DNA of 64,000 nt from Lentisphaera profundi (lineage in GTDB: Bacteria; Verrucomicrobiota; Lentisphaeria; Lentisphaerales; Lentisphaeraceae): contig NZ_CP117811.1 of assembly GCF_028728065.1 (NCBI RefSeq), forward strand, positions 62,001 to 126,000, given 5' to 3'. Under the pieces are notes generated by a model. The model did not search any database. It was not told the origin of the DNA and saw only the letters and a program-made list of their open reading frames with translations. Made by a program: the position numbers and the translations under genes. Of this stretch, positions 9,534-43,164 are shown in pieces. Position 1 is the stretch's first letter, and each line of letters begins with the position of its first letter.

Positions 9534-10634
9534 TTAACGAAGATTTTGTCTGTGAAGGCGAGAGAAGTATTCTCGACATTTGGAAAAATTGGGCCTGTTT
9601 TCGGGATCTTGATCAATCATAAGTCGAACAAATGCCGGTAAGTTTTTGTCTTTAAATTCTTCTAGGTAGGTGATGCGCTCAATGAGTAGATTGTGTGGAT
9701 TATTTTCTAAAAATGGGTACTCACCTGAAATAAAGGCTATCGCAAGAATCCCTAGTGAATAAACCGCAGATGCACGTGTATGAACTTTATTTAACACGGC
9801 TTCAGGAGCGAGAAAGTAAGGGGGGATAGCTTTGTTAATTTTCATGCGAGACAACAAAGATTCACGTAAACCATAGTCACAAAGCTTAGTGGTGCCATCC
9901 ACAGTGAGCATGACATCAGAGGCTAAAAAAGCGCCATAACAACTATGGTCAGACAAGTCTTCAGCAATTTGGCAAATCTGGCTAAGTACTTGAGCCACTT
10001 GTTCTTTTGGCAAAGCTCCAAACTTGCTCAAGTAGAGGTTCATTCTATAAGACGCATTCTCACGGCTAATATAATAGGCACCATCATCCTCAGTATAATG
10101 CAGGGGAGAAAGATAATTGTTTACCTCAAGGACGGCATAATCTGTGAGGATATCTTTTAAGTTAGATAGCGACGCAGAGGTATCAATTTTTTCATAAACC
10201 ACGACGTCGCCATAAAAATCGGTTTCTTTATTTTGAGCGCGAAAAATATTGATAAAGTCACTTTCATAAATGTGTTTATCATAGATGAATTTTTCTGTTT
10301 CAACTGGGACACGAAATTGACTGGAGCAATTGGGGCACTTTACTTTTTCAAAAAGAGTTTTGGTTTTAAAAAGATTCGTCCCTTCACACTGAGCGCAAGT
10401 AATATAGATTTGGTAAAGTTCTTCTGCTTGAGGAGCGTCACCTTCAGATGTATTAAAACGCTCGATGTTATTGCGAGTTTCTTGGCCAGGAAGTCGTAGG
10501 CTATTGGGGAGCATCATGTCAAGTTGAGTTTTACGCCTTTGCAAAGGAGGCAGTGTAGTATGCAGGTCGAGTCGTTTAAGCAGATCGCCTCGCGTATTTT
10601 TCTTGACTTGTTCTTGATTATCGGAATTATTCAT
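9534..10634 (-). CDS. Zinc-ribbon protein with degenerate protein-kinase domain (pseudokinase)
   Basis: A 366-residue soluble protein; the ATG at 10634 has a strong AGAGGGGG ribosome site, unlike the in-frame TTG 24 bases earlier. A CxxC...CxxC ribbon (ITCAQCEG and VKCPNCSS) lies at about residues 78-110. The remainder follows a Ser/Thr kinase plan: a C-lobe with TTKLCDYGLRES in place of DFG, APEAV in place of APE, then YSLGILAIAFISGEYPF and ENRPNFSKCREY. The catalytic-loop position reads CYGAFLASDVML, where an HRDxKxxN motif should be, so the catalytic aspartate and asparagine are gone. I expect binding or scaffolding, not phosphotransfer. No partner is obvious in the neighbourhood. Confidence 0.75.
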   Translation of the reverse strand: MNNSDNQEQVKKNTRGDLLKRLDLHTTLPPLQRRKTQLDMMLPNSLRLPGQETRNNIERFNTSEGDAPQAEELYQIYITCAQCEGTNLFKTKTLFEKVKCPNCSSQFRVPVETEKFIYDKHIYESDFINIFRAQNKETDFYGDVVVYEKIDTSASLSNLKDILTDYAVLEVNNYLSPLHYTEDDGAYYISRENASYRMNLYLSKFGALPKEQVAQVLSQICQIAEDLSDHSCYGAFLASDVMLTVDGTTKLCDYGLRESLLSRMKINKAIPPYFLAPEAVLNKVHTRASAVYSLGILAIAFISGEYPFLENNPHNLLIERITYLEEFKDKNLPAFVRLMIDQDPENRPNFSKCREYFSRLHRQNLR

Positions 10635-10886
10635 ATCGCCCCCTCTGTCCTCGTACAATTTTAAAATAAGTGTGTTAAGTCAAGAAGGTCCTTTTGTGGA
10701 ACGGTTTCTTGATCATTCTATTTTGCATATAACTAAGTGACAAGAAAAATTGAGAAGTGCTACAAATCTTTAATTGTATTTAGGTGTGACTTACGGAAGA
10801 GGCTAAAATAATTAGTTAAAATTTAATATTTGAAACACGTAAAAAGATTATATTTAGATAATTATCAATGATTTATGGGATATGTG

Positions 10887-10907
10887 TAAGCTTATTATAT
10901 AAGCTTA
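10887..10907. promoter_or_regulatory. Perfect dyad in the 10635-11006 gap
   Basis: Arms TAAGCTTAT and ATAAGCTTA are separated by three bases. The dyad lies in an AT-rich gap of about 370 bases that holds no gene. The gap separates two minus-strand genes: the pseudokinase, whose start faces this gap, and the end of the ThuA-type gene. It could be an operator for the pseudokinase gene, but it is 250 bases from its start; the role is a guess. Confidence 0.3.
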
Positions 10908-10965
10908 TAATGAGATGATTTTTTCAGGATTTATGATAATTCAGCAATGAGATTGGCATCAATAA

Positions 10966-10992
10966 GATGTGTCGAAGATGGTTCGACACATC
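10966..10992 (-). terminator. Hairpin terminator after the ThuA-type gene
   Basis: An 11-bp perfect stem (GATGTGTCGAA with TTCGACACATC) and a five-base loop lie 15 bases past the stop codon of the minus-strand gene. They are followed on that strand by a short T-rich tract (TTATT). The stem is strong and the tract weak. Confidence 0.65.
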
Positions 10993-11006
10993 CTAATTAA
11001 ACTTAG

Positions 11007-14642
<3,636 letters not shown>

Positions 14643-21056: not shown

Positions 21057-21091
21057 ACAAAAAAAGCCTCCACGATGGGAGGCTTTTTTTA
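21057..21091 (-). terminator. Terminator downstream of the valS 3' remnant
   Basis: GCCTCC pairs with GGAGGC around a six-base loop, with A-runs on the left and T-runs on the right, so it can work both ways. It follows the remnant stop codon by 17 bases, the position expected for the original valS terminator. Confidence 0.8.
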
Positions 21092-21107
21092 TGGAGTGAG
21101 GCGAGGC

Positions 21108-21313
21108 TTACTCGATGATGAGTGCGATTGCCACACCTTCTCGTGCATCTGTGTACTCAAGACCTTCGCTATTGAAGCTCACTTCTTCAGCGCGAGCGGC
21201 AGCTTTTAGCTGTCCTGGTTCGCCTTGGAGAAGTTTGAGGTGGTCACCTTCAGCTTTTACGGAGATAGCTTTGATAGGTGATTTAGATTTGAGGCCATTA
21301 GCTTGTTTAATAG
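21108..21313 (-). pseudogene. Second copy of the valS 3' end (remnant)
   Basis: This 206-base segment aligns without gaps with 26570-26775, the last 68 codons of intact valS. It keeps the frame through the stop (KQANGLKSKSPIKAISVKAE ... GVAIALIIE). Protein differences are few and mild (Tyr to His, Ala to Gly, Glu to Asp, Leu to Ile), so the fragment has not drifted at random. It has no start and no upstream part. With the intact copy it brackets the hydroxylase/GH3/epimerase operon as a direct repeat. Confidence 0.9.
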
Positions 21314-21482: not shown

Positions 21483-22298
21483 ATGAGAGAATTTTTAGAT
21501 TTAGTCCTTAATATGCCTGCTTGGCAGAAGCTAGCCATAGTGATTTTTTCACTGAGTTTATGTTGGCTGCTCGAAACTTGGAATCCTTTATTTAAATTCA
21601 ACTACGATAAAAAAAGGCATGGTCTTACAAATTTATCCTTGTTTTTATGGATGTCTTTGATCAACTTTTTCTTTGGACTCTTTTTAGTTTATGGCTTAGA
21701 TTTTTTTCAGTCTAGTGGTTTCGGGCTACTGCAAATCATTTCACTTCCACTATGGTTTGAGTTCGTCTTATCGGTATTAATTCTCGATTTTATTGCTCAA
21801 TATGTAATTCATGTATGTCTGCACAAAATTCCGTGGATGTGGAAGTTTCATGTGATTCATCATAGTGACGAACAGCTCGATGCAAGTTCAGGTACGCGCC
21901 ATCACCCGATTGATTATCTCCTGCGCGAAGTTTACTCTTTCATAGCGCTTGTACTGCTGGGGATTCCGGCGGCCTATTATTTTACATTTCGACTATTTAC
22001 GATCTTTTTCACCTATATCAATCATGCCAATATTTCCGTACCCACCTGGCTCAACCGACCGCTCTCTTTGATCTTTGTGACCCCCGACCTACACAAAATC
22101 CATCATCACCGTAAACAACCCTGGACCGACCAAAATTACGGTAATATATTCTCCTTCTGGGATCGTATTTTCGGCACTCTGATAGAGGCTGATTCACGTG
22201 ATGTTGAGTATGGTCTAGATTCACTTGGCGAAGGCTTTGACGCAGGCGTCAAGGATTTGCTGCTGCTGCCCTGGAAAAAAGATGATACACATGAATAA
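21483..22298 (+). CDS. Sterol desaturase / fatty-acid hydroxylase superfamily protein
   Basis: A 271-residue integral membrane di-iron enzyme with at least four hydrophobic spans. The eight-histidine pattern is visible: HVCLHKIPWMWKFHVIHHSD (about 112-131), RHHPIDY, and near the end LHKIHHHRKQPWTDQNYGN, with FSFWDRIFGTL closing the domain. Such enzymes hydroxylate or desaturate lipids using O2. It is the first gene of a tight operon (next start overlaps by eight bases). The preceding 170 bases carry the inverted repeat at 21352-21386. The substrate is not predictable from the sequence. Confidence 0.88.
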   Translation: MREFLDLVLNMPAWQKLAIVIFSLSLCWLLETWNPLFKFNYDKKRHGLTNLSLFLWMSLINFFFGLFLVYGLDFFQSSGFGLLQIISLPLWFEFVLSVLILDFIAQYVIHVCLHKIPWMWKFHVIHHSDEQLDASSGTRHHPIDYLLREVYSFIALVLLGIPAAYYFTFRLFTIFFTYINHANISVPTWLNRPLSLIFVTPDLHKIHHHRKQPWTDQNYGNIFSFWDRIFGTLIEADSRDVEYGLDSLGEGFDAGVKDLLLLPWKKDDTHE

Positions 22299-22716
22299 AC
22301 GTGCGGCATTTATACTGCTATTACTCACGCTACTATTTCTAGGCCGCGTCAGTGCTCAGCTCGTAGAATTCTATGTTGATGTGCCCATCATCCCAAATTT
22401 CGAGGAATGGCACAGTGCCACCATCCCCTATGGGCTACTACTCTTTTTTCAGCTTATCATTCTTTACCTGATGCTGATTAATGTGAAACGTTTATGGGAG
22501 GGGAACTTCAGTGCAAAAATGAGTAAAGGAAAAATATTCTTGATGTTGGGCCTCGTTTACTTTTTTGCGATGATCGCTAGACATATCCTCGGATTGACCC
22601 TTTTGTCTGATACAGTTTGGTTCACCAGCTTTTTATCTATTTATTTCCATTATGTCCTAGCGGCTTATCTCACTTATTTAGGCTGGATTCACCACAAGCA
22701 GGCCACTCATGCGTAA
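22291..22716 (+). CDS. Small multi-span membrane protein in the GH3 operon
   Basis: A 141-residue protein with four predicted hydrophobic helices (about 5-22, 46-64, 80-97 and 108-127) and a short histidine-containing tail (WIHHKQATHA). The start overlaps the stop of the hydroxylase gene by eight bases, and its own end overlaps the next gene by eight bases. An ATG nine bases earlier is an alternative. I do not recognise the family. It may be a membrane partner for the two hydroxylase domains or a redox/cytochrome-like subunit; the histidines hint at this but do not show it. Confidence 0.75.
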   Translation: MNKRAAFILLLLTLLFLGRVSAQLVEFYVDVPIIPNFEEWHSATIPYGLLLFFQLIILYLMLINVKRLWEGNFSAKMSKGKIFLMLGLVYFFAMIARHILGLTLLSDTVWFTSFLSIYFHYVLAAYLTYLGWIHHKQATHA

Positions 22717-25249
22717 AGTTTCATTACTCAATGCCTCTATCTATCCCGCGCTTATGGCGTTTTCCTTAGTACTTTTTTTTGCTTTGCAAAGTATGGGCGT
22801 GTCCTTGCTTCTGAGTACTTATTCACCCGTGATACTTGCGGCATTAGTCATTTGCCTTTTCGAAAATTTCCGACCTTATAATTCTACTTGGAAGCCCAAT
22901 TCTGCTGAGATCAAATCTGATGCGACCTATATGCTAGTAGTTCAAGTTCTGCTAGCGCGGATGCTCGCCTTCAGTTTTACATGGCTTCTCTTAACAGCTA
23001 ATTTTAATGCGCCCAGCGCACTCTGGCCGCATTATTGGCCCGTGCTCCTACAAGTTGTCATCATGATTTTACTGGCAGACTTTCTGCGCTATTGGCTGCA
23101 TCGCCTAGCTCATAGCTGGCAACCCCTTTGGCGTTTGCACGCAGTTCACCACGCGCCGTCAAAGCTCTACTGGTTTAATGTGAATCGCTTTCATCCCCTG
23201 GAAAAAGTGACGCAGTTTTTATTTGATGCCTTGCCCTTTATTTTACTTGCGCTCGACCCAAAAGTCCTTGGCTTGTATTTCGTTTTTTACGCCGTCAATG
23301 GATTTTTTCAACACTGCAATATTAAAGTCGAAATGGGCTTTCTAAATTATATCATCAGCGGACCTCAATTGCACCGCTGGCATCATTCGCGCAAAGTGAG
23401 TGAATCAAATAATAATTACGGAAATAATATCATTATCTGGGATTTACTTTTTGGAACCTGGTTTTATCCACGGGAACGCCAAGTTGGTGAACTGGGCTTA
23501 CTCAATAAAAATTACCCCCAGGATTTTGCGGCTCAGATGCTCACCCCTTTGAGTGACATCGATAAAAAGCAGCTATCACCAATGGGCTTTATTGACTTGC
23601 TGTTAAATTTTCTTTTACGCATAAAAATGTATTTTATTTATATGATTCAGGTGAAAGGTTTTCTTGCGAGAACCGCGAATCCGATGAAGTATCAAATTGA
23701 ACTCATGAAACGTATTTGCCATAACAATGCTAATACGGACTATGGCAAAAAATATAAATTCTCCAATATTGAAAACTATGAAGATTTTCAGAAATGTGTT
23801 CCCATTAGCGATTATGAAGACCTGCGTCCTTATGTCGAACAGCAGGATGAAAATAATACTAAAGCACTCATCGCAGGAAAAGTAATAAGCTATAAGCAAA
23901 GCTCCGGAACAACGGGTAAGGCAAAATATATCCCCGTCACTCGTGAGTCTTTGAAGTTCATGAAAATATCGCGTCAGATCACCGTGTGGTTTCAATACAA
24001 ACTCAAGCCCCATTGTTTTAGCGGTCACGTGCTACCCATTGTAAGTCCAGAAATTGAAGGGTTCATGCCTTCGGGCTTGCCATTTGGCAGTGCCTCCCAT
24101 CAAATCGCTGGCAGTATGCCCTGGGTGGTGAAGAAAAAGTTTGTCTTGCCTCCTGAAGTTTTTGAAATAGAAGATTACCCCATCAAGTACTATATAATGA
24201 CTCGCATTGCTCTGGCGGACAAAAGTATCACTTATCTGGGGACCGCTAATCCGACGACCTTGCACAAGATATGTGAAACCTTCATGCTTAATAAAGCACA
24301 GTTATTGCAGGATATTGATAATGGCGGCTGTAACTATTTGAATGAACTACCGCAAAAGTTGCAGTCTAAGATAAGGCCTTGGCTAAAGAAAGATCCTCAA
24401 CGAGCCGCGGAGTTACAAGATTTGCACAGAGCGCAAATCTTTGAGATTTGGCCTTATTTGAGTCTTATCAATACTTGGACCCGCGGTAGCTGTGGCATTT
24501 CGATCAAGGCTCTTTTGGAAAATGCACCGACTGAGCTGATGACTTGCGATCTGGGTTATCTGGCAAGCGAATTATATGGAACCCTGGTGATTGACCCACT
24601 CAAAGGGATTGAATTGCCCAATTTAAACACGGTCTTTTATGAGTTTTGCGAGCGAGATAAATGGGAGTCGAATTCACCGCAAATACTTTTACTTGATCAA
24701 GTCACCGAGGGCCAATTTTACTATGTTTTCATTACGACTTCGTGGGGGCTGTATCGCTATCAAATGAATGATATAATCACTGTTACAGGAATGTATGATA
24801 AGACGCCCGCACTACATTTTGTGCAAAAGGGCAGGGGATTCACAAATATGACTGGTGAGAAGCTCTATGAATCGCAATTGATTGAAGCGATGCAGAAACT
24901 TGAAGAAACATACAGCTTGCAGGTGAAGTTTTATCTTATGTTGGCTGATGAGCAAGAGTGTTTTTATCGGCTTTACCTCGAACAGGAAGAACAGGCCCCG
25001 GCTCAATCAGATCTGATGGCACTCACAAACGCACTCGATCAGCAGCTTCAGGACATCAATCTTGAGTATAAAAGTAAACGGGCTAGCACACGACTCAAAC
25101 CACTGCGTTTAAGCCTGCTCAAATCCGGGGCTTACGAAGCTTATAAACGCGAACAGCTCAGTAGTGGAATTCGTGAGGGCCAATACAAAGTCTTACTGCT
25201 CGATTATGCCGCCAATAATAAATTCCCCTGGGAGGAATATCATGTCTGA
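22709..25249 (+). CDS. Fusion of a fatty-acid hydroxylase-like domain with a GH3-family acyl-amido synthetase
   Basis: An 846-residue two-part protein. Residues 1-300 are a membrane di-iron hydroxylase: HRLAH (131-135), LHAVHHAPSK, NRFHP and HRWHHSRKV (about 222). Residues about 320-846 are a GH3 adenylating enzyme. The ATP-binding motif I is SSGTTGKAK (from about 398), a motif II equivalent is LASELYG, and the third motif GLYRYQMNDIITVTG lies at about 679-693. GH3 enzymes activate a carboxylate with ATP and join it to an amino acid. Having both activities in one chain suggests that a membrane lipid or fatty acid is oxidised and then conjugated. The stop overlaps the epimerase start by eight bases. 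The frame is intact across the join. Confidence 0.88.
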   Translation: MRKVSLLNASIYPALMAFSLVLFFALQSMGVSLLLSTYSPVILAALVICLFENFRPYNSTWKPNSAEIKSDATYMLVVQVLLARMLAFSFTWLLLTANFNAPSALWPHYWPVLLQVVIMILLADFLRYWLHRLAHSWQPLWRLHAVHHAPSKLYWFNVNRFHPLEKVTQFLFDALPFILLALDPKVLGLYFVFYAVNGFFQHCNIKVEMGFLNYIISGPQLHRWHHSRKVSESNNNYGNNIIIWDLLFGTWFYPRERQVGELGLLNKNYPQDFAAQMLTPLSDIDKKQLSPMGFIDLLLNFLLRIKMYFIYMIQVKGFLARTANPMKYQIELMKRICHNNANTDYGKKYKFSNIENYEDFQKCVPISDYEDLRPYVEQQDENNTKALIAGKVISYKQSSGTTGKAKYIPVTRESLKFMKISRQITVWFQYKLKPHCFSGHVLPIVSPEIEGFMPSGLPFGSASHQIAGSMPWVVKKKFVLPPEVFEIEDYPIKYYIMTRIALADKSITYLGTANPTTLHKICETFMLNKAQLLQDIDNGGCNYLNELPQKLQSKIRPWLKKDPQRAAELQDLHRAQIFEIWPYLSLINTWTRGSCGISIKALLENAPTELMTCDLGYLASELYGTLVIDPLKGIELPNLNTVFYEFCERDKWESNSPQILLLDQVTEGQFYYVFITTSWGLYRYQMNDIITVTGMYDKTPALHFVQKGRGFTNMTGEKLYESQLIEAMQKLEETYSLQVKFYLMLADEQECFYRLYLEQEEQAPAQSDLMALTNALDQQLQDINLEYKSKRASTRLKPLRLSLLKSGAYEAYKREQLSSGIREGQYKVLLLDYAANNKFPWEEYHV

Positions 25250-26369
25250 GTCTTCTATTAAAAACTGTAAAAAAACAAGCTTAGTAAACAACTTGCTGAG
25301 CGCGGATTTGTATGAACTTCAGCTCCCCTTTCAGCAAGCGTTTTCACATAGTAAAAAATCGCGTAAAAGCTCTGATTCATTCATGCTGCGATTAGTCGAT
25401 GATAAAGGTAATGAGGGCTGGGGTGAAGCTCTACCGCGTGATTATGTTACCGGCGAGGATGCCCGGAGTTTGAAGAAGGATTTTGCTGAGATCGCGTGGC
25501 CGGCCTTACCCGATATTCCTCCGCAAGTCCAGGGTAGCCTGCGCTGCCTCGTAAGCACGGCTTTACTCGATTTAGAATTACAAGCATCCAATCAGCATTT
25601 CGCTGAACGTTATCCGAAGCGAAGGGATATTTTTTCTAGTGGTGTGATAGGCTCTGGTTCTAGAGAATCAATCATAAAAATCGCAAAGTTTTACTGCGAT
25701 CTTCAATTGCCTTCAGTGAAGTTAAAAGTATCTTGCCTCGATGACCTCGACTTGTTGCCAATACTTCGCAAAATCCTCGGTGATAAATGTCTTTTACGTC
25801 TTGATGCCAATGCCGCTTTCGATTTCGAAACCGCACTCGAATTTATGCGCCAAGCGGCCGCTTTCGGGGTAGATCTAATCGAACAACCACTTGCGGTAGG
25901 AGATGAAGAAGCCGCCGCGGAACTGCGTCGGGCAGGGCCTATGCGCATCATTGCAGACGAGTCTTTGACTAATCTTAAACAAGCTGAAAATTTAATCAAA
26001 CTCGGTGCCTGTGATATTTTCAATTTACGGCTATCAAAATGCGGCGGGGTCGAGCCACTTATCGAAATCGCGAAACTCGGCCGCAAAAATGGTCTTGGTC
26101 TGATGATGGGCTGCCATGTAGGCGAGAGTGCCTTGCTCTCTGCAATGGGCAGTCAACTCGCCCAGCACCTCGGAGTCAGTCTTTTTGAGGGTTGTTTTGG
26201 ATCTTACTTACTTGCGCAGGATATCTGTCAGAAAGACCTGCGCTTCGGTTCCTCGGGTAAAATACCCTCATTTAAAAGTGAAAGCTCCTTTGGCATTGAT
26301 CTGGAAGCGGCGCAAATCATAAAACTTAGTGCGGATCATCTTCATTTTAGCACACAAGATTCTCTATGA
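25242..26369 (+). CDS. Enolase-superfamily enzyme, dipeptide epimerase-like
   Basis: A 375-residue enzyme; the ATG at 25242 has GGGAGGAAT seven bases upstream and overlaps the GH3 stop. The muconate-lactonizing subgroup layout is clear. An N-terminal capping domain is followed by a barrel with the catalytic KxK (VKLKVS), metal ligands in LDANAAF, IEQPL and IADES, and the second catalytic lysine in LRLSKCGGVEP. Relatives include L-Ala-D/L-Glu epimerase and o-succinylbenzoate synthase; no menaquinone genes are near. In this operon it may invert the stereocentre of an amino acid or amino-acid conjugate made by the GH3 partner. That role is inference. Confidence 0.85.
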   Translation: MSESSIKNCKKTSLVNNLLSADLYELQLPFQQAFSHSKKSRKSSDSFMLRLVDDKGNEGWGEALPRDYVTGEDARSLKKDFAEIAWPALPDIPPQVQGSLRCLVSTALLDLELQASNQHFAERYPKRRDIFSSGVIGSGSRESIIKIAKFYCDLQLPSVKLKVSCLDDLDLLPILRKILGDKCLLRLDANAAFDFETALEFMRQAAAFGVDLIEQPLAVGDEEAAAELRRAGPMRIIADESLTNLKQAENLIKLGACDIFNLRLSKCGGVEPLIEIAKLGRKNGLGLMMGCHVGESALLSAMGSQLAQHLGVSLFEGCFGSYLLAQDICQKDLRFGSSGKIPSFKSESSFGIDLEAAQIIKLSADHLHFSTQDSL

Positions 26370-26513: not shown

Positions 26514-26553
26514 CACAAAAAAAGGCTCATTCGAAATGAAGAGCCTTTTTTTG
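26514..26553. terminator. Bidirectional terminator between the epimerase and valS genes
   Basis: AAAAGGCTC pairs with GAGCCTTTT, with a shorter inner CATT/AATG stem and A/T tracts on both sides. It serves the convergent plus-strand operon and minus-strand valS. The 26370-26513 part of the gap shows nothing else. Confidence 0.85.
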
Positions 26554-26569
26554 AGTCTAGAGTTTAGAT

Positions 26570-29311
26570 TTACTCGAGGATGAGGGCGATTGCCACACCT
26601 TCTCGTGCTTCTGTGTACTCAAGACCTTCGCTATTGAAGCTCACTTCTTCAGCGCGAGCGGCAGCTTTTAACTGTCCGGGTTCGGCTTGGAGAAGTTTGA
26701 GGTAATCCCCTTCAGCTTTTACTGAGATAGCTTTGATAGGTGATTTAGATTTGAGGCCATTAGCTTGCTTAATAGGAAGAATAACTTTCTTGATATCAGC
26801 TACTAATTCAGTTCTTAATAGCGCCGCTTCATCCATTTTTACGGCTAATTTAAAACGTTCGCTAGAACCTTCCCACGCATCGGCAACTTCGGCTTTCACA
26901 AGCTTAGAAATTTTGCAGACACCACAAAGGTCTTCACCTATTAAATCAATAAGTTGCTGATCGTCTTCACTGGCTTCCACGGTGAGAGTTTCTACTGCGA
27001 GCTTCATAGAGAAATTATTTTTGGACTTATAAGTTCTCACTAAAGTAACGAGATCTAAGAGTACGAGACCGGCTTTTTTTCCAGTTTCGCAAATCGCTTC
27101 TGCAGCAACACTCGGAAGTAAAGAGATATGAACTGATTTATCACCTTCGCGTTCACGGAAAACATCTTGGTAGATTTCTTCGCAAATATGAGGCATATAA
27201 GGAGCAAATAGTTTAATGATTCCCAGTTGGATTTGATAAAGCGTCCAGCGTGCGGCTTTGGCATCTTCAGCGGCTTCATCACCATAAAGGCGGTGCTTCA
27301 CCATTTCGATATAATTATCACAGAAGTCAGACCAGAAGAATTGTTCAAGGGCATTACGCGCAGGGAAAAATTCATACTTTTCAAAAGCTTTGTGATAAGC
27401 GCTGATGACTTCATCAAAACGGGTAAGAATCCATTTGTCAACGGCCGTTAAAGTAGGCATGGCAGCGGAAGCATCAAAATTCTCTAAAAAGCCTTCTGCA
27501 AAACGAGTGGAATTCCAAAGCTTGGTAAGAAGTTTACTTGAGCCTTCGATTTCGTCTTCATCAAAAGCAATATCAGTACCGAGAGTACCGGATGATGCCC
27601 AGTAACGAATTTGGTCGGCACCGTGATTTGCGATCATCGCAAGTGGTGAGAAGCGATCGCCATCTTTTGATTTAGAGATTTTTGATTTACGTGCAAAGGC
27701 TTTACCTTCGACTTGTTGTTGTTCAACCTGAACATCTTTTTTGATCACGTGACCAGAAATCACGGCATCTTTCCATGGCACATCATTGAATTGGAAATAA
27801 GATTTCACAATGGTGTAAAAAGCCCAAGTACGAATGATATCGTGAGCTTGAGGACGCATCGACATAGGGCGAATTTGAGGAAGCTCATCTTCTTCACCCC
27901 AGCGCGAGTTCAATTCTGGTGAACTAGATGAAGTAGCCCAGGTATCGAGAACATCTGCTTCAGGAATAAGTGTTTCAGGATCATAGCCTTTGCAATCAAG
28001 GGGCTTGTCCACAAGTGGATTGACAGGGAGTTGCTCAGGTGATGCAGGGAGAACCGTTCCGTCAGGAGCATACCAAACGGGAATCGGAACACCGAAATAG
28101 CGTTGACGAGAGATAGCCCAGTCCCAACCGAGGTTATCGACCCAATCACGGTAGCGTTTGCCCATGAATGATGGGAACCAATTTACTTTTTCGCCTTGAG
28201 CTAAAAGTTCTTCTTTATGTTCAACAACTTTGATGAACCACTGTTTAGTGGGAAGATACTCAACAGGAGTACCACAGCGTTCGTGAGTATTCACAACGCG
28301 TGTTTCAGCCGCTAAGTCTTCTTGTTTGAAAATAATGTTTTCTTCTTTGAGTTTTGCGATGATTGCAGAACGAGCATCATCAATACTCATGCCTTCGTAT
28401 TCACCTGCGCGCTCATTCATGAGGCCTTCGAGGGTCAAACAAACATTGATTTCTAAATCGTGTTCACGCCACCAATCGATATCGGTTACATCACCAAAAG
28501 TACAGCACATAACAATACCAGTACCTTTTTCCGGATCGGCTTTTTCGTCGGCAAGAATTTTTACTGTGTGACCAAAAATGGGTACAATAGCATCTTGACC
28601 AATGAGGTGCTTATATTTTTCATTCTCAGGGTGAATAAACATGGCTGCACAGCCAGGAAGTAACTCAGGTCGTGTAGTGGCAATAGGAATATCTTCACCA
28701 TCGGCACTTTTAAAATTGAGGTAGTTAAAAATCGTGCCCTTGTTTACATCATCAACTTCTGCTTGAGCAAAAGATGTCTGACATTTCGTACACCAGAGTG
28801 TAGGGCTTTCATTATACTTAACTTTATCACGTTGGAGTAAATCAAGGAATGAACGTTGTGAAATACGCTGAGACTTTTCGCTGATGGTTGAGTAGGCATT
28901 TCCCCATGCGCAGGAAAAACCGAGACTCTGCCAAAGTTCTTTGAATTGAGAACGGTATTTAGCTGAAACTTCTTCACAGTGTTTAACGAATTCTGCACGA
29001 GGCATCTCTGAGCCCTTAATGCCTTTTTCTCTTTCGGTGAGGATTTCAGTGGGTAAACCATTGTCATCAAAACCAAAAGGATACATAACGTTTTTACCCA
29101 ACATGCGTTGGTAACGAGCTACGATTTCTGCTTGGGTATAAGAAAAAACGTGTCCGATGTGAAGCTTGCCGGATACTGTTGGTGGGGGTGTGTCTATAGA
29201 AAAAACTTCTTTATCTGATTGTTCATCAAAGGCATAGATGCCTTCTTGATCCCAGAATTCCTGCCATTTTTTTTCGCTGTCGGCAGCACTGTATTTGTTG
29301 GACAAAGCCAT
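26570..29311 (-). CDS. valS: Valyl-tRNA synthetase
   Basis: A 913-residue class I synthetase that charges tRNA-Val. The HIGH motif is in PPPTVSGKLHIGHVFSYTQ (about 42-60) and the KMSKS loop reads KISKSKDGD. A cysteine pair (LWCTKCQTSF) lies in the catalytic insertion, and the CP1 editing domain and anticodon-binding region are present. The final 68 codons (26570-26775) are duplicated at 21108-21313 on the far side of the neighbouring operon. Only this copy has the full gene. The start ATG is preceded by GGAGATAAAATC. Confidence 0.96.
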   Translation of the reverse strand: MALSNKYSAADSEKKWQEFWDQEGIYAFDEQSDKEVFSIDTPPPTVSGKLHIGHVFSYTQAEIVARYQRMLGKNVMYPFGFDDNGLPTEILTEREKGIKGSEMPRAEFVKHCEEVSAKYRSQFKELWQSLGFSCAWGNAYSTISEKSQRISQRSFLDLLQRDKVKYNESPTLWCTKCQTSFAQAEVDDVNKGTIFNYLNFKSADGEDIPIATTRPELLPGCAAMFIHPENEKYKHLIGQDAIVPIFGHTVKILADEKADPEKGTGIVMCCTFGDVTDIDWWREHDLEINVCLTLEGLMNERAGEYEGMSIDDARSAIIAKLKEENIIFKQEDLAAETRVVNTHERCGTPVEYLPTKQWFIKVVEHKEELLAQGEKVNWFPSFMGKRYRDWVDNLGWDWAISRQRYFGVPIPVWYAPDGTVLPASPEQLPVNPLVDKPLDCKGYDPETLIPEADVLDTWATSSSSPELNSRWGEEDELPQIRPMSMRPQAHDIIRTWAFYTIVKSYFQFNDVPWKDAVISGHVIKKDVQVEQQQVEGKAFARKSKISKSKDGDRFSPLAMIANHGADQIRYWASSGTLGTDIAFDEDEIEGSSKLLTKLWNSTRFAEGFLENFDASAAMPTLTAVDKWILTRFDEVISAYHKAFEKYEFFPARNALEQFFWSDFCDNYIEMVKHRLYGDEAAEDAKAARWTLYQIQLGIIKLFAPYMPHICEEIYQDVFREREGDKSVHISLLPSVAAEAICETGKKAGLVLLDLVTLVRTYKSKNNFSMKLAVETLTVEASEDDQQLIDLIGEDLCGVCKISKLVKAEVADAWEGSSERFKLAVKMDEAALLRTELVADIKKVILPIKQANGLKSKSPIKAISVKAEGDYLKLLQAEPGQLKAAARAEEVSFNSEGLEYTEAREGVAIALILE

Positions 29312-30217: not shown

Positions 30218-31942
30218 TTATTTTACCACAGGAAGAATAATTCTGGAGGGGTATTTTTTTGAAAGCATGATCGTGTTGTTTGCTACAGGAGATTCATTAA
30301 AAGACATTACGGGTTCGTAACTATTGGGATGCACTTCGTACTTAGGACTGTTGCTACTAGATATATGTACAGCTAAACGGTGCCCCTTGTTAATGACAAT
30401 CGCGGTACTCCACATATCCATCGTCAATTTATATACTTTGTCTTTTTTAAGTTTAGATTGCTTATCGAAACCTTCATGGAAGCGTCCCATAATAATCGAA
30501 TCGCGTACAATGGCTTCGTAGCCATCTGGATAAATATCTATAAGATTAGCGGTGAAAGTAGTGTCCTCGACATCCGTTTTAATAAAAAGTTCAGCAAAAA
30601 CCTTACCCGTAATCTCCATAGGAGCTTGAAGTACATCAGAGCGGAAACGCAGGATATCTTTGCGATCCTTGTTAAGTCTCTGATCTTTTGGCCCGACACC
30701 TGTGTGAATAAAAACATCTCCGCCAATTGAAGGCACAGGATTACGAGGATCGTATTTGAAACTGAGAGCGGCATTTTTTACTGTGGGTAAACTTGTCTTA
30801 AGAGAGCCATCACTCTTCATATAATAAGAGACTTTTTTATGGGGAACAGGCCAGACTTCTGTCATTTTGTATTCGTTTCCTGGAGCATTTGGATCAGTAC
30901 TATCACCCATTAAGAAGTAGATCATCTTTGATTTTTCTGTTACCGAGCCTGTGAGTGCCTTGGAGAGCTTCGGCAGTTGCCATTTTGCGGGAACAGCACG
31001 CATGGGTGGTTTTCGTCCAGCCATATTTCCATGGCCAGAGGCATCGACTTGAATATATAAATTGCCCTTATCGGCAAAAGCCTCGAAATAGTCTAAAGCA
31101 GACTCCGCAAAAATGTCGTACCAGCCTGTTTTGGCAATAAAGGCAGTTTGATTGTTGATGGAAGCCTTTTTAATAGTTTGTGCGTAAGTGTTTTTATTGA
31201 AGAGAGTAATGGTGGGTTTTGGCCATTGAGGTGTCTGAGTATTGCGTTGTTGCAGCCAGTTATACATTTCCCTACGAACGCCATTGTGATAGGTCCAATA
31301 TAAATAAGCATTACCGCCGCTAACATTTGTTGAAACAGTCTTCAAGGCAGGATGTTTTGCTAAGTAAGCCATATAGCCACAGAATCCGTGCCCACTCTGA
31401 CCAATAATGCCCACATTCCCATTACAAAAAGCTTGTTTCGAAATCCAGTCAATCGCATCATAGCCATCTTCGATTTCATTATCAAAGCTCTTGGCATCGA
31501 ATGTACCTTTGCCCTCAGATTCACCATCTCCTCTCGGATCCTGACAGATAAAGACTAAGTTTTGTCCTTTAAATCGATGGGCATTATGAAAGGCTGCACT
31601 CCAAATTCCGTAAGCAGTGCGAGTGAGAATTACGGGGGCAGGTCCAGCGTTCTTGGGGACGAAAATACCCGTAGCAAGCTTGACACCGTCTCTCATGGGA
31701 ACCATGTGGCGTTCAAAGGTATAATCACCTCCTAGTTGAGCAGAAATAGTCTCGATACAATATTTTTCTTTTTCCGCATGGGTGAGGATGCCATCACCAT
31801 TGAAATCCGATTTTGGGTGTTGCTTCATAAAGTGAGCAGCACCAGGAATTGCGGTAGGCAAAGATTTTTCAATATCCTTTGCATAGAGTGAATAGCTTAT
31901 CAATGCTAGATTTATAAACAGTAATCGCTTTAGTTTTATCAT
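30218..31942 (-). CDS. CocE/NonD-family (X-Pro dipeptidyl-peptidase-like) hydrolase
   Basis: A 574-residue exported alpha/beta hydrolase. The signal peptide (about 1-21, ending SLYAK) is followed by a short EF-hand-like calcium loop, DFNGDGILTHAE (about 45-56). Then comes the S15/CocE fold with MRDGVKLATGIFVPK, the oxyanion region QDPRGDGES, and the nucleophile elbow GQSGHG (Ser between the glycines). The C-terminal jelly-roll typical of CocE enzymes covers about 370-570. It probably cleaves an ester or amide outside the cytoplasm; the substrate is unknown. The elbow lacks the usual GSSYGG form but keeps GxSxG. Confidence 0.88.
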   Translation of the reverse strand: MIKLKRLLFINLALISYSLYAKDIEKSLPTAIPGAAHFMKQHPKSDFNGDGILTHAEKEKYCIETISAQLGGDYTFERHMVPMRDGVKLATGIFVPKNAGPAPVILTRTAYGIWSAAFHNAHRFKGQNLVFICQDPRGDGESEGKGTFDAKSFDNEIEDGYDAIDWISKQAFCNGNVGIIGQSGHGFCGYMAYLAKHPALKTVSTNVSGGNAYLYWTYHNGVRREMYNWLQQRNTQTPQWPKPTITLFNKNTYAQTIKKASINNQTAFIAKTGWYDIFAESALDYFEAFADKGNLYIQVDASGHGNMAGRKPPMRAVPAKWQLPKLSKALTGSVTEKSKMIYFLMGDSTDPNAPGNEYKMTEVWPVPHKKVSYYMKSDGSLKTSLPTVKNAALSFKYDPRNPVPSIGGDVFIHTGVGPKDQRLNKDRKDILRFRSDVLQAPMEITGKVFAELFIKTDVEDTTFTANLIDIYPDGYEAIVRDSIIMGRFHEGFDKQSKLKKDKVYKLTMDMWSTAIVINKGHRLAVHISSSNSPKYEVHPNSYEPVMSFNESPVANNTIMLSKKYPSRIILPVVK

Positions 31943-38197: not shown

Positions 38198-39717
<1,520 letters not shown>

Positions 39718-40006
39718 TTAAGGAATGAAAAAAGACTAACCTCTATTTAGAACTTCGGTTCTATAACATGAGTGCTTTTTACATGACTTATTACCCCGTT
39801 ACTATCATATAATTCAAATATTGGACCGAGCGACAGCGCTCAGTCTTCGATATAGATCCTTGAAAGGAAGAAAACAATAGAATGAAAGAGTCAAAGTATA
39901 AAGTAAGAAACAATTTATACCAAGATCGCAAACCAAAGAATACAAGATAGAACGACTTAGTAAGAAATAGGTGTGTCGCCGAAAATGTTAATTTTTTAAG
40001 ATTTTT
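39718..40006 (+). other. 16S-23S internal spacer without tRNA genes
   Basis: About 290 bases. No tRNA-Ile or tRNA-Ala is present. It holds the right arm of the 16S processing stem (39795-39817). It also holds AAGATCGCAAAC (39923-39934), which pairs with GTTTGCGATCTT at 43000-43011, a probable 23S processing stem. Confidence 0.8.
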
Positions 40007-42927
<2,921 letters not shown>

Positions 42928-43048
42928 TCTTTTTTACTTAGCACTCAAATGCTCAGTAAAAAAGACAATAAGCACACACACAAATTCGAGTTAAGTCGAG
43001 TTTGCGATCTTAATCTTTCCACACTAAGTTTTCTTCCCAACATTTTCC

Positions 43049-43164
43049 GGCTGGTAACCACAGCGGAGGAGCCACACCCGATCCCATCCCGAACTCGGTA
43101 GTTAAGACCTCCAGCGCCGATGGTACTGCAGTTAAGACTGTGGGAGAGCAGGTCGTTGCCAGCC
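43049..43164 (+). rRNA. 5S ribosomal RNA
   Basis: Ends pair as GGCTGGTAAC with GTTGCCAGCC. The sequence contains CCACACCCGATCCCATCCCG and GAACTCGG, the usual loop B/C region. Length is about 116 bases. It is the last gene of the operon. Confidence 0.95.

Follow-up and report, generated by a model that had tools for sequence, protein, structure and literature searches.

Aminolipids are phosphorus-free membrane lipids that are important in oligotrophic waters. The bacterial GH3 enzyme OlsH uses ATP to join a free fatty acid to ornithine, producing N-acyl-ornithine, and its operon in Singulisphaera acidiphila also includes OlsI and OlsG (JBC 2025, PMC12493201). The same study counted >7,500 bacterial GH3 homologues, and its authors expect other members to use other amino acids (PMC12493201). 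A reference title quoted in PMC11631085 describes OlsE as hydroxylating the headgroup of the finished ornithine lipid at C4. Racemases of the enolase superfamily accept N-acyl amino acids and act via a pair of lysines (PMC8142540). In the literature searched, no bacterial GH3 with an assigned function was found besides OlsH. Here, we describe a locus of Lentisphaera profundi, contained in a 64,000-nucleotide stretch of DNA (the window), in which relatives of these three enzyme classes are encoded side by side.

Gene organization and catalytic motifs

The four open reading frames on the plus strand between positions 21483 and 26369 (Table 1) were confirmed at the coordinates given in a preliminary description, and the domains assigned to them were borne out by Pfam searches. 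Starts overlapping the preceding stops had also been claimed, and all three junctions overlap by 8 nt when ATG starts are used. An obvious Shine-Dalgarno sequence is found only at the start of P0002 (GGGAGGAATATCATG), and scans for promoters and terminators found nothing above chance.

Table 1. Features of the cassette, its borders, and the protein conserved at hydroxylase-free loci
Feature	Locus	Positions	Strand	Match or remark
P0003, extra membrane di-iron hydroxylase, 271 aa	window	21483-22298	+	FA_hydroxylase, 1.1e-29 (Pfam)
P0004, small 4-TM protein, 141 aa	window	22291-22716	+	no Pfam match
P0001, FA_hydroxylase-GH3 fusion, 846 aa	window	22709-25249	+	Pfam
P0001 N-terminal part, OlsE-side membrane di-iron hydroxylase domain	window	22709-23596	+	PF04116, 1.3e-30
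P0001 C-terminal part, GH3 acyl-acid amido synthetase domain, in-frame fusion	window	23597-25249	+	PF03321/PF23571/PF23572
P0002, enolase superfamily (MLE subgroup), putative N-acyl-amino-acid epimerase/racemase	window	25242-26369	+	MR_MLE_C, 1.4e-32
Duplicated remnant of valS 3' end, left border	window	21079-21313	-	encodes last 70 aa of ValS at 90%
In-place valS 3' end, right border	window	26541-26775	-	valS 26570-29311
437- to 479-aa protein	L050	8985-10349		
437- to 479-aa protein	L051	6762-8075		
437- to 479-aa protein	L052	2344-3735		
437- to 479-aa protein	L098	7901-9253		
437- to 479-aa protein	L099	912-2351		

Located in a 2.8-Mb contig, P0001 reads as one frame uninterrupted by stop codons and is the sole GH3 gene of the 5.46-Mb genome. 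The GH3 N, M, and C domains are matched in Pfam at 1.4e-58, 2.5e-20, and 1.5e-17, with PF03321 at 199 bits (gathering score of 23.6). The di-iron histidine clusters of the hydroxylase (HRLAH, HAVHH, and HRWHH, for HxxxH, HxxHH, and HxxHH) and the three GH3 nucleotide motifs (SSGTTGKAK, GYLASE, and GLYRYQMND) are intact in P0001 and in essentially all cassette members, which rules out the earlier concern that the GH3 motifs might be dead. The AlphaFold model of P0001 (mean pLDDT of 85.4) consists of a helical part that is presumably membrane embedded, a long helix (residues 291 to 323), and a GH3 fold that matches plant GH3 structures (E value of 1.5e-27, TM score of ∼0.8 by target).

The domain pair and its neighbors were sought in other genomes. 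Among 15 cassettes that contain a hydroxylase, the two domains are fused in 5, with an epimerase-type gene adjoining: the window and four from Pseudomonadota (G782, G1228, G1109, and G1114), whose proteins are ∼40% identical to P0001 over most or all of their length. In the other 10, the hydroxylase and GH3 are separate genes, and the position of the fusion join is the gene boundary of these split forms. The unbroken frame and the four fused homologues in other genomes rule out an assembly join, which had been considered as the source of the fusion. The existence of fused and adjacent split forms argues for a shared target molecule of the hydroxylase and GH3. In both GH3 and hydroxylase trees, the fused forms fall on one side of a branch with weak support (69/47 and 83/68), a pattern compatible with a single origin of the fusion.

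In P0002, residues K160, K162, D188, E214, D239, and K266, which are invariant in an alignment of 13 sequences, supply both lysine bases (KxK and K) and the three acidic metal ligands of the MLE subgroup. A motif check over 17 sequences found the catalytic motifs throughout, except for an IEQP-type motif that was not found in G1109. Dipeptide (L-Ala-D/L-Glu) epimerases carry a characteristic DxD motif where the eighth strand ends. P0002 lacks it, with E316 and G320 aligned to the two aspartates of 1jpm, and this E, G pattern resembles that of the closest PDB profile match, 2p88, which we take to be an N-succinyl-Arg/Lys racemase. P0002 scores below every curated family cutoff, including those of MenC, AEE, and DgcA, and belongs to a distinct, tight subfamily whose members match the A1/A8 profiles at E values of <1e-100, versus ∼1e-50 for ordinary epimerases. 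A 13-row tree had suggested a conflict between the histories of the epimerase and the GH3 of the window, but the resulting chimera claim was dropped because a 17-row tree puts the window P0002 on a long branch at no settled position. Separately, the enolase-type gene of L034 (∼10520 to 11613) is disrupted by stops or frameshifts, with one TAG and two TAA codons in the matched frame, while its GH3, hydroxylase, and TM genes are intact; this is either real decay or a metagenome assembly error.

The two upstream genes differ in how far they belong to the cassette. P0003 is 24 to 33% identical to the cassette hydroxylases, which are its sole match in the 14 other hydroxylase cassettes. The overlap that had led P0003 to be counted as a member of the set is therefore real, but conserved membership is not, and by this comparison P0003 is a window-only addition outside the conserved set. 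P0004 has homologues in 13 of these 14 cassettes. Overall, the 4-TM gene is found only together with the hydroxylase (14 of 15 loci with it, 0 of 5 without it), a distribution that identifies P0004 as a conserved partner of the hydroxylase. The P0004 AlphaFold model has four long helices (mean pLDDT of 89.8), and searches of Pfam, NCBIfam, and PDB folds returned no match, with no PDB fold below an E value of 4.

Distribution and acquisition of the cassette

A first scan with the fusion against contigs of GTDB-type genomes found three relatives in which hydroxylase, GH3, epimerase-type, and small membrane genes are adjacent, with the hydroxylase and GH3 split. Scans with an enolase-type profile found the gene in 4 of 388 genomes of the window's phylum, 6 of 77 Nitrospinota (the phylum of L033), 3 of 398 Pseudomonadota (the phylum of L032), and 6 of 200 genomes of one Pseudomonadota order. 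With two further members in the window's class and the L034 genome, the total is 20 distinct genomes, in a sample without some phyla such as Bacteroidota, home of most bacterial GH3s. The enolase-type gene directly adjoins a GH3 gene in all 20. This bears out the earlier view of the genes as a functional unit and disposes of the possibility that the epimerase never co-occurs with the fusion.

The full set of hydroxylase, GH3, and enolase-type genes is present in 15 of the 20 genomes, which belong to the Nitrospinota, Pseudomonadota, and Verrucomicrobiota or relatives. Across Nitrospinota, Pseudomonadota, and the window, the usual order is TM-hydroxylase-GH3-epimerase, and neighboring genes overlap or are only a few bases apart. 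In L032 and L034 the TM gene instead closes the cassette, and one relative has an S15 hydrolase gene inserted between the TM gene and the fusion. The cassette flanks mostly differ, the exception being two related Nitrospinota loci (L065 and L067). Judged from these gene neighborhoods, co-occurrence of the cassette genes is far beyond chance. The cassette of L032, labelled Thioglobus, is 79 to 86% identical to that of L034, and ankyrin-type genes are common to both, so L032 is probably misbinned. Among the viral contigs searched, there was no relative of the epimerase; the phages searched gave only four weak single-domain matches, all in records of Acinetobacter phage MD-2021a, and the plasmids searched gave single-domain matches but no record with the fusion. 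As a side observation, an S15/PepX hydrolase gene interrupts a Pseudomonadota cassette (L079, 10105 to 11886), and an S15 hydrolase gene 25% identical to it lies beyond valS in the window (30218 to 31942), possibly by coincidence.

In the remaining 5 of the 20 genomes, the GH3 and enolase-type genes occur without a hydroxylase in the retrieved neighborhood. All five loci encode a conserved protein of 437 to 479 aa (Table 1) that is 50 to 71% identical to the G181 copy; the members tested had no Pfam, NCBIfam, or PDB sequence match. An ICMT/PEMT-type methyltransferase gene lies beside the GH3 gene in three of the five, and two carry a gene distantly related to FkbO/Hyg5 chorismatase-like/RidA proteins (49 and 39 bits, with a cutoff of 325). 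Because five genomes have the GH3 and enolase-type genes with another set of neighbors, these two genes are the core and the hydroxylase and TM genes one tailoring option. Other GH3 genes in the window's phylum (L008, L009, L023, L024, and L029) directly follow a gene of ∼230 to 250 codons with a common C-terminal pattern, GDELxCLAxIxxxNLN, which suggests that GH3 has another conserved context besides this cassette.

The window cassette is bordered by a 235-bp direct repeat of 90% identity (Table 1). Integration at the 3' end of valS would leave just such a repeat, with a valS remnant of ∼70 codons on the far side, and the cassette thus appears to have been acquired horizontally at that position. 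No integrase is present at the cassette site. The GC3 of the cassette genes is slightly higher than that of most neighbors (0.42 to 0.49 versus 0.26 to 0.43), which lends weak support to acquisition. Two genomes of the same genus, G209 and G315, lack the cassette. At the same site downstream of valS, G315 has a HigB-like toxin gene (PF05015) and an HTH antitoxin-type gene (L081, 2068 to 2790), while in the other genome valS lies almost directly against the next gene, suggesting that the site is a small insertion hotspot.

Other features of the genome were recorded in passing. The rRNA operon at 38202 to 43164 has a 16S-23S spacer (39718 to 40009) without a tRNA gene, and ARAGORN found a single tRNA-Ser in the whole window. 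The assembly consists of two contigs of 2.81 and ∼2.65 Mb, and the first contig of a same-genus genome is 2.73 Mb; this pattern may reflect two large replicons.

Proposed function and alternatives

The gene set, its conservation, the motifs, the folds, the equivalence of fused and split forms, and the acquisition pattern are all computed results. We tentatively propose, with confidence just short of even, that they describe a membrane-bound and horizontally mobile cassette for the assembly and tailoring of an N-acyl amino acid, which is most likely an aminolipid akin to ornithine lipids. Using ATP, the GH3 domain would adenylate a carboxylic acid in its free form, probably a fatty acid of the long-chain or 3-hydroxy type, and would couple it to an amino acid through the amino group, leaving the alpha-carboxylate free. 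Such a product would be N-acylated while retaining its carboxylate and would thus be the correct kind of substrate for an enolase-family racemase. The enolase-superfamily enzyme would hold this carboxylate via Mg2+ while its lysine pair inverts the alpha-carbon, so that the headgroup becomes D-configured. With help from the 4-TM protein, the membrane di-iron hydroxylase would then oxidize the lipid, probably at the headgroup as OlsE does. The preliminary description had placed the oxidation of a membrane lipid ahead of its conjugation, whereas OlsE acts on the completed lipid. We infer the substrates, the epimerization, the order of steps, and the role of the 4-TM protein; the combined reading of synthesis, alpha-carbon inversion, and hydroxylation rests on the parallels with OlsH and OlsE, the N-acyl substrates of known racemases, and the 2p88-like pattern of P0002. 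It is possible, though doubtful, that the cassette, laterally spread among Nitrospinota, Pseudomonadota, and Verrucomicrobiota/Lentisphaerota, makes a new class of hydroxylated aminolipids with a D-configured headgroup. We know of no enolase-superfamily enzyme that acts on a membrane lipid.

Several observations weigh against this proposal. P0001 scores far below the cutoffs of the OlsH and OlsE models (77.5 versus 620 bits and 190.9 versus 475 bits), one non-cassette control hydroxylase beats the cassette members against OlsE (342.6 bits) and another comes near them (146.6 bits), the enolase-type enzyme falls under every curated cutoff, and the cassette has no gene for an OlsI-like O-acyltransferase. 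The chorismatase-like gene at two of the five hydroxylase-free loci would fit an aromatic acid rather than a fatty acid. The GH3 might conjugate an aromatic or other hydrophobic small acid instead of a membrane lipid, yielding a diffusible conjugate or signal. The characterized plant GH3s, which are the best structural matches, do use small acids, and that chorismatase-like/RidA protein adjoins the cassette core at both loci. We nevertheless consider this serious rival unlikely, given that a membrane hydroxylase spanning the OlsE model is fused to or overlaps the GH3, that the GH3 carries a long N-terminal helix, and that OlsH, the characterized bacterial GH3, takes fatty acids. The opposite simplification, a conventional hydroxylated ornithine or lysine lipid made by work-alikes of OlsH and OlsE, with the enolase-type enzyme only supplying or recycling an amino acid derivative, draws on the fact that these two are the only named NCBIfam relatives covering the two domains. 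We regard it as quite improbable: the equivalog cutoffs fail, OlsI and OlsG are missing, and the enolase-type gene is tied to GH3 more tightly than the hydroxylase is (20 of 20 versus 15 of 20).

The reaction of the enolase-type enzyme could also differ from the one proposed. As a lyase or cycloisomerase acting after hydroxylation, it would remove water from the amino acid or lipid, or close it into a ring, and yield a dehydro-amino-acid or a cyclic product and not a D-center. o-Succinylbenzoate synthase, muconate cycloisomerase, and cis-3-hydroxy-L-proline dehydratase use the same fold and lysine pair, their models score P0002 about as epimerase models do, and a hydroxylase accompanies the enolase-type gene at 15 of 20 loci; at the other five, however, hydroxylation is no prerequisite, since no hydroxylase is found in the retrieved neighborhood. 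This chemistry, elimination in particular, is a serious rival but seems rather unlikely to us. We give almost no credence to P0002 being a housekeeping o-succinylbenzoate synthase (MenC) or murein L-Ala-D/L-Glu epimerase that merely happens to be located here. Its similarity to these enzymes is at the family level, but the DxD motif is replaced by E..(.)G, the scores lie below the MenC and AEE cutoffs, few genomes of the phylum carry the subfamily (4 of 388), and its linkage to GH3 is complete. A MenC role was rejected, as the genome has no MenB.

The cassette defines a GH3 subfamily whose partners stay the same across three or more bacterial phyla, among them relatives of the nitrite-oxidizing Nitrospinota, and such constancy makes its substrate and product predictable and testable. 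If the enolase-type enzyme epimerizes the conjugate, stereochemical inversion would become a step of membrane lipid biosynthesis.

Comparison with characterized enzymes

The preliminary description knew of no pathway with this gene set. The literature searched indeed yielded neither the combination of four genes nor the fusion nor an obligate enolase-type partner, but OlsH (PMC12493201) and OlsE had been overlooked. Since both equivalog cutoffs fail, the cassette stands outside their families.

The cassette hydroxylases resemble OlsE in being membrane di-iron FA_hydroxylase proteins that span the OlsE model (NF052566) end to end; the P0001 match covers positions 6 to 288. They score 153 to 203 bits, compared to 544.5 bits for a Rhizobium positive control and mostly 74 to 147 bits for generic FA_hydroxylase controls, so that the link to OlsE is suggestive only. 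P0002 shares with N-succinyl- and N-acylamino acid racemases and dipeptide epimerases the KxK and K bases, the D/E/D ligands, and the 2p88 match. It differs from them in its scores below the curated cutoffs, in the lack of DxD, and in being tied to GH3 rather than to amino acid or peptide metabolism. The plant enzymes JAR1, GH3.5, and GH3.12 have the same fold and ATP motifs as the P0001 GH3 domain, which is only ∼20% identical to them, bacterial, and fused to a membrane hydroxylase.

The closest parallel is OlsH. Like it, the cassette GH3 combines the GH3 fold and three nucleotide motifs with an operon encoding a lipid-modifying enzyme. Its scores against the OlsH equivalog (NF052613) remain low in the relatives as well (86.4 and 94.2 bits), and the P0001 match says little beyond GH3 membership because OlsH is the only GH3 model that NCBIfam returned. 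Each enzyme class in the cassette is known, and a 2025 study already reported aminolipid synthesis by a GH3; what is new relative to the literature searched is the combination, together with the fusion and the obligate partner. The product is probably a modified amino acid lipid that is apparently undescribed. Where the OlsH operon includes OlsI, an alpha/beta-hydrolase O-acyltransferase, and OlsG, an N-methyltransferase, the window operon lacks both and the cassette carries instead a hydroxylase that is often fused to the GH3, a 4-TM protein, and an enolase-superfamily enzyme.
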